In this document: piece by piece, positions 2,141 to 17,351 of the stretch | Numbering within the stretch: the first letter of the stretch is position 1 | How the letters are laid out: each line of letters opens with the position of its first letter | Source of the DNA: Chloroflexota bacterium | Lineage (GTDB): Bacteria > Chloroflexota > Anaerolineae > Aggregatilineales > Phototrophicaceae | Direction of reading: 5' to 3' | Assembly: GCA_016223085.1 (NCBI GenBank) | Contig: JACRPS010000003.1 | Span: 62,001 to 126,000 of the forward strand | DNA length: 64,000 bases | Translations under genes and position numbers: made by a program | Notes under the pieces: model-generated | Databases searched by the model: none | Seen by the model: the letters and a program-made list of their open reading frames with translations, nothing else | What the model was told of the DNA's origin: nothing

Positions 2141-3184
2141 TTATGGCGTGGCAAGCGCCTCCGCCTGTACCGCCAGCCGCAGGCTGTCCAGCCCATCCTG
2201 CCCGGTAACGGCCAGCGTGTGAGCCGGGTTGCGCACCGCCCGCGCCAGATCGCGCATCCCGGCCTGAATGCTGGCGCGGTAGATGGCGGATTTTCCCTCC
2301 GGCGCGAAGGCGCAAACACGGTGCTGCGAACCAACCCGTTCCGATTCGGCCACCTGCCCCGGTAGATAGTGGCGCAGCGTTTCAGGCTCGACCGTTGTCA
2401 GCAGTTCCATCGAGGTTGGCACCCATTCGCGCAGGGTGACGTAACCCTGCTCAAAGGTCAGAATCACGGTCGTCTGTTCGGTCTGGCCGCTTTTGTCGAA
2501 GGCATGGTAGAAGTGTGCGGCGGCATCGCCAAAGCGCGCTAAGGCTTCCACGCGGTCGGTCGCGCCGTCAGCGCGGGTGAAGGACTGCGACGCCGTGATC
2601 TGCCCCGGCGTTCCTGCTACCCACGTGAAGGCATCGAAGAAATGCACCCCATGCTCAATCCAGATGCCGCCGCTTTTCGCCTTATCCCAGAACCAGTGAC
2701 TGGCGGGCAAATCCAGCCCGGCGGCGTGGTTCGCCAAATCCATCTGGCGCAGCGCGCCGAGAACGCCTGACCGTGCCAGATGCGCCGCCGCTGCCCAGTA
2801 TGGATTCCAGCGCATGACATAATCCACCGTCAGCCGCAGGTTGCGCGCGCCTGCTTCTTGGATGAGCGCCGCGCCATCTTCCAGTGTCAGCGCCAGTGGT
2901 TTTTCGTTAAACAGGTGCTTGCCTGCCGCCAGCGCCGCCAATCCCTGCGCGGCGTGTAGGTACGGCGGCGTGTTCAGCGCCACGATTTCGACCGACTCAT
3001 CAGCTAACAGCGCGTCGAGCGAGTCGTAGGTAGCGGCGTGATGTTTGGCGGCCAACGAACGGGCGCGGTTAGCGTCCACGTCCGCTACCGCCGTGATGCG
3101 CACGTCCGGCATTTCTGCGAAAGCATCCAGGCAAAAGACGCCAAACGCCCCCGCCCCAACCAGTCCAATCCCGACCGGCTGCAT
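2141..3184 (-). CDS. Gfo/Idh/MocA family oxidoreductase
   Basis: NAD(P)-dependent sugar or inositol dehydrogenase-like protein of 347 aa. The N-terminal Rossmann fold has GxGxxG as GAGAFG (residues 10-15), and the family EKP signature is at 94-96. The C-terminal half has the alpha/beta dimerisation domain, with an EHGVHFFD motif that probably carries the active-site histidine. It lies 6 bases downstream of a GH130-type enzyme on the same strand, which suggests one transcript and a role in processing a sugar released from a glycan. The exact substrate is unknown. The gene converges with the ATPase gene, with only 7 bases between the stops. Confidence 0.85.
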   Translation of the reverse strand: MQPVGIGLVGAGAFGVFCLDAFAEMPDVRITAVADVDANRARSLAAKHHAATYDSLDALLADESVEIVALNTPPYLHAAQGLAALAAGKHLFNEKPLALTLEDGAALIQEAGARNLRLTVDYVMRWNPYWAAAAHLARSGVLGALRQMDLANHAAGLDLPASHWFWDKAKSGGIWIEHGVHFFDAFTWVAGTPGQITASQSFTRADGATDRVEALARFGDAAAHFYHAFDKSGQTEQTTVILTFEQGYVTLREWVPTSMELLTTVEPETLRHYLPGQVAESERVGSQHRVCAFAPEGKSAIYRASIQAGMRDLARAVRNPAHTLAVTGQDGLDSLRLAVQAEALATP

Positions 3185-15718: not shown

Positions 15719-16432
15719 ATGGAACCAAACACAAGAACGCTTTCCAACCGGCCCCCGCAGCGCAGTCTGCTGATTATTGCCATCATCGTGATAATCGCCG
15801 TGATCGCCGCCGGCGTGGCGATCTTCCTGGTGAGCAACACCCGCACGGTCACACCCGGCAATTACGAAGGGGTCCCTTTCTCGCGCCAGCCCGATGGCGG
15901 TTTTCTGCTGGGCAATCCCGATGCGCGGGTGACGATCATCGAATTTGCCGACTATACCTGACCGGCCTGCCTCTCGTATCTGGAAGATACGGAAAGGTTC
16001 ATTAACACTTACGTCAAAACCGGCAGAGCCAACTTTGAGTTCCGCATTCTCCCCACCGCCGGGCGTGAGCTGACGGCCTTCCTCGGCGAAATGGCCGTCT
16101 GCCTGGACGAGCAGCGTCCCGGCGCGTTCTGGCAGGCCAAGGACGAACTGTTCCAGATGGCTTCCACCGGCAATTACAACGGCGACAGCGGGCGCGAACT
16201 GGCACGCCGGCTGAATCTGGACTACGGTCAGGCGCTGGAATGTGTCCGTTCCAGCAAGCAGGTCGCTACCGATACCGCGCTGGCGAACCGGCTGGGTGTC
16301 AGCGGTACGCCGGCGGTCATGATGCGCCTGAATGATGGCGACCCAACCTGGATTCAGGTGGGCGACCAGCGGCTTGACCGGGGCGGCGTTCCCTACGAAG
16401 TTCTGGCAAGTGTGGTAGACAGCAACTCCTGA
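15719..16432 (+). CDS. DsbA-like thiol-disulfide oxidoreductase with in-frame TGA at the first active-site Cys (probable selenoprotein)
   Basis: Membrane-anchored DsbA/thioredoxin-fold protein, probably 237 aa if TGA at 15959-15961 is read as selenocysteine (residue 81). Residues 16-38 are one hydrophobic anchor, so the catalytic domain faces outside. The text around the TGA is FADYT-(TGA)-PACLSYL, exactly the DsbA active site FADYTCPAC with the first Cys replaced. The frame stays open for a further 156 codons and contains the rest of the fold, including the cis-Pro loop SGTPAVMM. A hairpin at 15975-15991 has SECIS-like geometry. A point mutation or sequencing error (TGC or TGT to TGA) is the alternative. 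No selA, selB, selC or selD gene is in the window. Confidence 0.78.
15959..15997 (+). promoter_or_regulatory. Candidate bacterial SECIS element
   Basis: Immediately after the in-frame TGA, CGTATCT (15975-15981) pairs perfectly with AGATACG (15985-15991) around a three-base loop GGA. The loop starts 20 bases after the TGA and has G in its first two positions. Further pairing (CCT at 15970-15972 with AGG at 15995-15997) can extend the stem across a small internal loop. Spacing, short loop and leading G agree with the general bacterial SECIS pattern. Confidence 0.65.
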
Positions 16433-16442
16433 TCACGATGTT

Positions 16443-16466
16443 GGGGCGAATCACGTGGTTCGCCCC
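16443..16466. repeat. Palindrome GGGGCGAA/TTCGCCCC
   Basis: Eight-bp perfect arms around TCACGTGG, 10 bases after the stop of the DsbA-like gene. Main palindrome family. Confidence 0.9.
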
Positions 16467-16607
16467 CTCTCACCCAAGCCTCATTTGATAACCGCTGCCG
16501 CCTGCGCAAAAATAATTTGTAGTGCTGGCAACAGCGATTGCTGCCTACCAGCAAATGCCCAAAAGAGGCGTGTCAGTTCGCTTCTTGATGAAGCAGAGGA
16601 TATGAAC

Positions 16608-17351
16608 ATGGCACAAACGCAAACAACATTGATTGACGTTGACACCTTCATCGAGCAGAGCCGTCCGTTTATCGCCTGGATGCTGGACTGGAAAGCCGGG
16701 TTGAAACCGCTGTCGCTCTCCTCGCTCACCCAGCCGGACGCGCGCGCGGTGGGCATCATTTCGGTGGACGTGATCGAAGGTTTCTGCCACGTCGGGCCGC
16801 TGTCATCACCGCGTGTCAAAAATATCGTCCAGCCGATTGCCCGCCTGTTTGAACTGGCGTGGTCGCAGGGCGTGCGCGACATCGCCCTGCCGCAGGACAC
16901 CCACCCGGAAGACGCCGTCGAATTTGCGCAGTACGGCGTTCACTGCGTTCGGGGGACGGTGGAGTCGGAAACGGTCGAAGCCTTCAAACGGCAGCCGTTT
17001 TTTGACCAGATCACCGTCATCCCCAAAAATTCGATCAACAGCGGCCTGGCGCCGGGTTTTGACGACTGGGTAGCCGCACGTCCGCAAATCACCAACTGGA
17101 TTGTCACCGGCGACTGCACCGACCTGTGCACCTATCAACTGGCGATGCACCTCCGGCTGTCCGCCAACCAGCACCAGCGGCGCGGCTGGCGCGTCATTCT
17201 GCCGGTGAACACGGTGGATACCTACGATATGCCGGTTGACCGCGCGCGGGAACTGGGCATCGTGCCGCACGACGCCGAATTTTTGCACCTCGTCTTCCTG
17301 TATCACATGATGCTGAACGGGATTGAGATCGTCACCGAAATCGTGCCGTAA
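16608..17351 (+). CDS. Isochorismatase-like cysteine hydrolase
   Basis: Predicted cytoplasmic hydrolase of 247 aa in the isochorismatase/nicotinamidase superfamily. The catalytic triad is visible: D54 in SVDVIEGF, K140 in IPKNSINS and C174 in CTDLCTYQLAM. The open frame extends upstream into repeat sequence, but AGAGGA lies 7 bases before the ATG at 16608, which fixes the start. A nicotinamidase function would fit the nicotinate phosphoribosyltransferase gene 1.4 kb away on the other strand. The protein is longer than typical PncA and its metal-site histidines are not obvious, so the substrate is uncertain. Confidence 0.82.
   Translation: MAQTQTTLIDVDTFIEQSRPFIAWMLDWKAGLKPLSLSSLTQPDARAVGIISVDVIEGFCHVGPLSSPRVKNIVQPIARLFELAWSQGVRDIALPQDTHPEDAVEFAQYGVHCVRGTVESETVEAFKRQPFFDQITVIPKNSINSGLAPGFDDWVAARPQITNWIVTGDCTDLCTYQLAMHLRLSANQHQRRGWRVILPVNTVDTYDMPVDRARELGIVPHDAEFLHLVFLYHMMLNGIEIVTEIVP

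Follow-up and report, generated by a model that had tools for sequence, protein, structure and literature searches.

The forward-strand gene at positions 15719-16432 of the window (by which we mean the whole 64-kb stretch of DNA that was analysed) appears to encode a membrane-anchored DsbA-like thiol-disulfide oxidoreductase of 237 residues, with selenocysteine (Sec) as the first residue of its active site, U81-P-A-C84. Judging from sequence, we give this reading, including the mechanism and the origin by duplication proposed below, a probability of about 0.93. That the in-frame TGA is read as selenocysteine, in an active site for disulfide exchange, seems to us almost certain. A standard annotation would end the gene at this codon.

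The frame, its active site and the hairpin

The sole internal stop of the frame is the TGA at 15959-15961 (context ...EFADYT-TGA-PACLSYL...), and the final stop, at 16430-16432, is again TGA. The initial annotation had placed the internal TGA at the first cysteine of a DsbA-type CxxC site, in a frame intact on both sides and accompanied by a membrane anchor and a cis-Pro loop, and our analysis agrees with it on each of these points. Cysteine stands at 58 of the 65 homologous places that we compared, and the frame has no other defect. Residues 14-38 (15758-15832) form a helix in the AlphaFold2 model and are a hydrophobic stretch, the N-terminal membrane helix, while T197-P198 (16307-16312), invariant in an alignment of 40 rows, belongs to the cis-Pro loop that is typical of thioredoxin-fold oxidoreductases. 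Also invariant in that alignment is Cys84 (15968-15970), the second residue of the active site; Cys128 (16100-16102) and Cys175 (16241-16243) make up a second, nearly invariant pair of cysteines. All of these features lie on the forward strand.

The protein matches Pfam family PF13462 (Thioredoxin_4) over residues 61-202 (E 2.7e-18, 67.1 bits against a cut-off of 23.2) and PF01323 (DSBA) over residues 158-220. The AlphaFold2 model, computed from the 40-row alignment with cysteine in place of selenocysteine, is a confident DsbA-like fold (mean pLDDT 92.9, pTM 0.80); a structure prediction from the single sequence had a mean pLDDT of 47.1 and was set aside. The thioredoxin fold, the DSBA and Thioredoxin_4 matches, the UxxC site and the cis-Pro loop place the protein among the DsbA-like oxidoreductases.

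A SECIS-type hairpin follows the TGA at 15975-15991, with arms CGTATCT (15975-15981) and AGATACG (15985-15991) around the loop GGA (15982-15984), and 20 nucleotides separate the TGA from the loop. It had been described at the outset as a perfect stem of 7 bp with a GGA loop, and so we find it. In the rule given in the part of the review PMC13188914 available, a SECIS element has a loop of 3-9 nucleotides, a stem of 4-16 bp, a G in the first two loop positions, a spacing of 16-37 nucleotides and a minimum free energy of at most -7.5 kcal/mol; the window gene satisfies these published constraints with a loop of 3, a stem of 7, GG, a spacing of 20 and -12.3 kcal/mol. As a bare fold of 50 nucleotides the hairpin is unremarkable (z -0.73; 40 of 200 shuffles fold equally well or better). 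Its shape and position are less common. A stricter rule, namely a perfect stem of at least 7 bp and a loop of 3-8 nucleotides with G in the first two positions, located 16-37 nucleotides after the codon, is satisfied at 198 of 21,309 positions in the window and after one of the 58 homologous cysteine codons. When the codons 3' of the TGA were recoded synonymously (loops of 3-9 nucleotides), such a hairpin arose in 97 of 20,000 cases for the window gene and in 9 of 20,000 for its orthologue in a second species, to which we turn below. Rfam and tRNA scans of the 64-kb window returned no matches.

Decoding of the TGA codon

The genome to which the window belongs (G000; 6,025,450 bases in 37 contigs, 97.85% complete, 4.44% contamination) contains everything that the initial annotation had proposed to look for, that is selA, selB, selD and tRNA-Sec, and their joint presence in one genome is expected of an organism with bacterial selenoproteins. 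SelB scores 373 bits against a cut-off of 242.25, SelA 554.7 bits and SelD 368 bits. The tRNA-Sec scores 73 bits (gathering score 47) and is called tRNA-SeC with anticodon tca by ARAGORN. Since this tRNA and selA are both encoded on C12, the contig of the window itself, contamination does not account for either. Another tRNA-Sec match (L009), barely above the cut-off at 47.2 bits, is a tRNA-Ser according to ARAGORN. The selD gene has one in-frame TGA itself (ACAG-TGA-ASKLGPG), and a hairpin is predicted 3' of it (L017, G000:C35:83024-83959). Within the genus, 11 of the 17 genomes have selA (G000, G279, G163 and 8 of the 14 others), that of the second species, G408, among them.

Homologues of the protein are widespread: a match at E <= 0.001 is found in 352 of 396 genomes of the class, and one at E <= 1e-25 in 94 of 98 genomes of the family. 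In the 17 genomes of the genus, for which all matches were listed, there is one TGA-containing match each in G000 and G408 and none in the other 15; additional stops in sister genomes, a concern raised initially, are not seen, as among the family matches listed an internal stop occurs solely in these two genes. The codon aligned with the TGA encodes cysteine at 58 of 65 homologous places, is TGA at seven and encodes tryptophan at none, and it is this alignment of an in-frame TGA with a conserved redox cysteine that one looks for in a bacterial selenoprotein. The seven TGA places belong to the window gene, its orthologue in G408 (L058), L083 (two), L084, L085 and L086, the last four loci having been included in the comparison because the class search had shown an internal TGA there. 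A wider set of contigs gave 80 loci in 86 aligned segments, with 57 TGC, 27 TGT and 2 TGA. One of these two (L120) is the G408 stretch again, JARKOK010000112.1 from an Aggregatilineales MAG, identical at 100% over 3,711 bases; the other (L172, within 2501-3007, from the MAG 'bacterium isolate LB3_2') has the TGA at the same site, in SDYG-U-PFC. A contig scan with the single window protein gave 36 stretches, none of them a relative, and a plasmid search returned 1,299 records, with 0 covering 80% of the query. In each of two genomes we also observed two adjacent matches inside one frame of about 610 residues, seemingly a fused double DsbA protein (G262:C16:622243-623460 and G376:C111:113902-115110), and frames resembling these occur in other genomes of the same genus as these two.

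The orthologue in G408 deserves particular attention. Its protein is 63% identical to that of the window, and it has the same TGA in an intact frame, followed by TGACCGGCCTGC and then by the arms CGTATCT and AGATACG unchanged; thus the TGA is conserved in the homologue of another organism (the record of L058 being the same as that of L120). Its hairpin agrees with the published rule except in energy, with -6.7 kcal/mol within 50 nucleotides against the -7.5 required, and longer stretches reach -8.0 and -8.8 kcal/mol solely through additional or different base pairs. Where both species have the same residue with a degenerate codon, the codon is identical in nine cases out of nine over the 14 codons that follow the TGA. 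Upstream this holds for 21 of 45 such codons and further downstream for 45 of 90; the contrast has a Fisher p of 0.002 when the whole remainder of the gene is the reference, and of 0.003 when it is the downstream part alone. Identity at third positions is 0.86 in these 14 codons and 0.51 further downstream. Upstream it is 0.42, where second positions reach 0.81, and further downstream 0.51, where they reach 0.80; such a deficit on both sides is what one expects of a protein under selection throughout. The codon identity and the excess at third positions just after the TGA therefore point to selection that would act there both on the RNA and on the protein.

It might be argued that the TGA stems from an error of sequencing or assembly, or that a nonsense mutation has recently turned the gene into a pseudogene, a cysteine codon having been misread or mutated. 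Indeed, TGC and TGT are one base away from TGA, and in the other 15 genomes of the genus the matches at E <= 1e-25 are free of internal stops. However, the frame in the window is otherwise free of defects, and the same TGA recurs in the second species in an intact frame with both hairpin arms unchanged. In our opinion the second species effectively excludes error and pseudogene, and we regard either as very improbable. Nor do we see a real chance for UGA being decoded here by plain read-through or in a reassigned code, for example as tryptophan. Both phenomena exist in bacteria, but the homologous codons (cysteine and TGA, never tryptophan) and the complete selenocysteine machinery in the genome speak against them for this gene, and the frame's own last codon is TGA.

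A selenocysteine pair in a cysteine subfamily

How the gene came about is a question that involves other DsbA-like genes of the class. The pattern GAYTWYNNNTGACCGNNCTGC is found in 54 of the 396 class genomes, with 69 matches compared with 4 for the reversed control; it was built from known cases, so that genes with other codons are missed. We read 31 occurrences in 30 loci. Two (L102 and L109) are not DsbA-like; the other 29, among which is the window gene, are DsbA-like and have UPxC. This suggests that DsbA-like selenoproteins may be common in this class of Chloroflexota. Since the strict 7-bp rule is obeyed at three of the seven TGA places compared and by 12 of these 29 genes (again counting that of the window), such a stem is no sure mark of these genes, and the rest must rely on stems that are weaker or interrupted, or on some different form. 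Two loci stood out on reading. L083 (G013:C24:19500-21200) is one frame with two DsbA-like domains, in each of which a TGA takes the first position of the active site (UPFC and UPAC), and its protein possibly contains two selenocysteines. In L112 (G203:C484) a single contig carries two DsbA-like sites with TGA, 1,221 bases from each other, and more DsbA-like sequence precedes the second.

Our tree has 91 rows. The duplicates L101 and L103, the two loci that are not DsbA-like (L102, L109) and rows of 90 residues or fewer, including L111, were left out; the gene of L086 appears a second time as one row of L112, and L113 contains unknown letters and, after them, seemingly out-of-frame sequence. 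The two Sec genes, of the window and of G408, form a clade (support 100/98) that is nested within a clade of 56 rows (also 100/98), made up of 54 rows from the family and two from the same order. Fifty-four of the 56 have cysteine, and the remaining 31 Sec rows of the tree all lie outside. Nearest to the pair is a group of four Cys rows that includes the Cys copy of G408, through a weak joint (96/32). The Sec label requires five changes on the tree, and the starred branches force at least four. Because the Sec rows were chosen by their TGA or by the pattern, and the tree was rooted at its midpoint with weak support (57/82), it is evidence that the pair is nested but does not tell how the other rows evolved. 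It gives no support to a common descent of the pair with the class-wide Sec DsbA rows, whose Cys relatives are sparsely sampled in it.

The surroundings of the gene add to this picture. Downstream of it, at 16602-17351 on the same strand, lies a candidate isochorismatase-like gene, assigned by reading of the sequence, that stands beside both Sec and Cys orthologues: tblastn from codon 16605 gives matches in 16 of 30 other loci, among them L058 and the Cys orthologues L025, L026, L059 and L060 (the match in L063 covers 48 residues only). The upstream gene, GH130-like by reading of the sequence, was found neither in L058 nor in the other 29 loci. G408 carries a tandem Cys copy, which starts 156 bases past the end of its Sec gene; in G000 there is no close Cys copy, as the five remaining matches are at most 35% identical. 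By eye, the sequence after the Sec gene is alike in both species (window 16433-16601, L058:2215-2370), with an inverted repeat GGGGCGA...TCGCCCC and then a common stretch CTCACCCAA...CATTTGATA; beyond it the Cys copy follows in G408 and none in the window. The 3' arm of the hairpin encodes Asp90-Thr91 in both Sec copies. In the place of Asp90, Thr or Val is found in the five nearest Cys copies, none of which shares the arm codons as a set, while Asp at this position also occurs in some more distant Cys homologues (L064, L067).

One may ask whether selenocysteine was instead ancestral in the subfamily, the Cys genes being later reversions. TGA-containing DsbA-like genes are indeed common elsewhere in the class, and one of the 58 cysteine places is followed by a SECIS-like stem of at least 7 bp. 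However, one has to descend several starred branches into the Cys rows to reach the pair (in a tree with the weak midpoint root given above), so that this scenario would need several separate reversions, and we hold it to be quite unlikely. Somewhat similar is our opinion of a horizontal transfer of the Sec gene into one species, or into the genus, from an unsampled relative. The family sample comprises 98 genomes, and the upstream genes differ, the GH130-like gene of the window not being found in L058. On the contrary, Cys orthologues have the same downstream neighbour and the tree places the pair with members of its genus, and transfer is accordingly an unlikely explanation.

The gene thus looks like the product of a separate gain of selenocysteine from cysteine, which would have followed a tandem duplication within one genus of an otherwise cysteine-containing subfamily. 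The simplest account begins with a Cys-type gene that was duplicated in tandem within this genus, continues with a change from Cys to Sec in one copy, and ends with loss of one or the other copy by lineage; in the lineage of the window it was probably the Cys copy that was lost later. We lean, with little more than even confidence, towards a still bolder proposal, according to which this is a recent birth of a selenoprotein, in which the SECIS element was shaped within the coding sequence, to some extent at the protein's expense, and Cys-only, Sec-plus-Cys and Sec-only stages may coexist in the genus. Three such states in one genus would allow testing both how a coding sequence gains a SECIS element and what selenocysteine adds to extracytoplasmic disulfide chemistry.

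Possible function and relation to known systems

As to mechanism, we propose that SelB carrying Sec-tRNA would bind the hairpin 20 nucleotides after the UGA, upon which selenocysteine would be inserted, and that the N-terminal helix would hold the protein outside the cytoplasm. There the selenolate may exchange with disulfides or thiols of client proteins, with Cys84 resolving the Se-S intermediate, and the active site could be re-oxidised by the VKOR-type protein of the genome or reduced by its DsbD-like protein. VKOR and DsbD_TM genes are each present in six of the six genomes tested. Our preferred reading is an extracytoplasmic disulfide oxidase that would be re-oxidised by VKOR, although sequence alone does not distinguish oxidase, isomerase and reductase.

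Among the closest solved folds are Wolbachia alpha-DsbA1 (PDB 3f4r) and B. subtilis BdbD (3eu3), at Foldseek ranks 1 and 9. The former has a second cysteine pair, C97/C146 (title of 3f4t), with a spacing similar to that of C128/C175 in the window protein. Identity to the window protein is 22% for alpha-DsbA1 and 18% for BdbD. Both presumably use cysteine and not selenocysteine. A Silicibacter thioredoxin-like oxidoreductase, P. aeruginosa DsbA2 and C. diphtheriae DsbA are also near the top of the Foldseek list.

The best NCBIfam match of the window protein is NF041057, the Rcas_1661 thioredoxin-like (seleno)lipoprotein, over residues 44-199. With 83.6 bits against a curated cut-off of 190, it does not belong to that family, and the Sec copy of L058, the Cys copy of L058 and L025 are below the cut-off as well (75.2, 93 and 84.4 bits). 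Unlike that family, the window protein has no cysteine ahead of the active site and is therefore without a lipoprotein cysteine. We take the name Rcas_1661 to point to Roseiflexus castenholzii. Hence, a related selenoprotein family of Chloroflexota is already catalogued; the review PMC13188914, in the part available, lists it as DsbG-like with UxxC. Closer to it in score are five of the DF(Q/K)-U-PxC genes (L083-L086 and most of L090-L119), which, as fragments, reach 99.6-173.2 bits. These genes come from the same class as the window gene and have the same UxxC site, which starts with TGACCG in both (as the pattern requires for L090-L119), but they lie outside its clade of 56 rows and their predicted hairpins are often at other spacings.

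That DsbA-like selenoproteins are a known class was acknowledged from the beginning, and rightly so: in the portions available, the Sargasso Sea survey (PMC1088965) and a bacterial survey (PMC1794560) describe DsbA-like UxxC proteins long ago, and PMC5029168, PMC11227280 and PMC13188914 contain them too. Titles and openings of abstracts revealed no recognisable case of a DsbA-like selenoprotein from Chloroflexota, which is no proof of absence from print, and PMC12013277 has no mention of DsbA, Chloroflexi, Chloroflexota or Anaerolineae. A gain of selenocysteine is not itself new for a DsbA-like protein. In an excerpted table of PMC1794560 the DsbA-like row reads 4, -, 1, 1; the second column has a total of 15, which is also how many Sec-to-Cys events the text counts, so that the third column probably gives Cys-to-Sec, with one event for DsbA-like proteins. 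Similarly, the accessible text of PMC11227280 considers that Asgard selenoprotein sequences might be newly evolved from Cys forms. With the known DsbA-like UxxC family, as far as these sources describe it, the window gene has in common selenocysteine in the first position, a SECIS-type hairpin directly 3' and widespread Cys homologues. It differs from that family in being membrane-anchored, in belonging to an otherwise cysteine-containing subfamily of Aggregatilineales, and in what is apparently a Cys-to-Sec event of its own.
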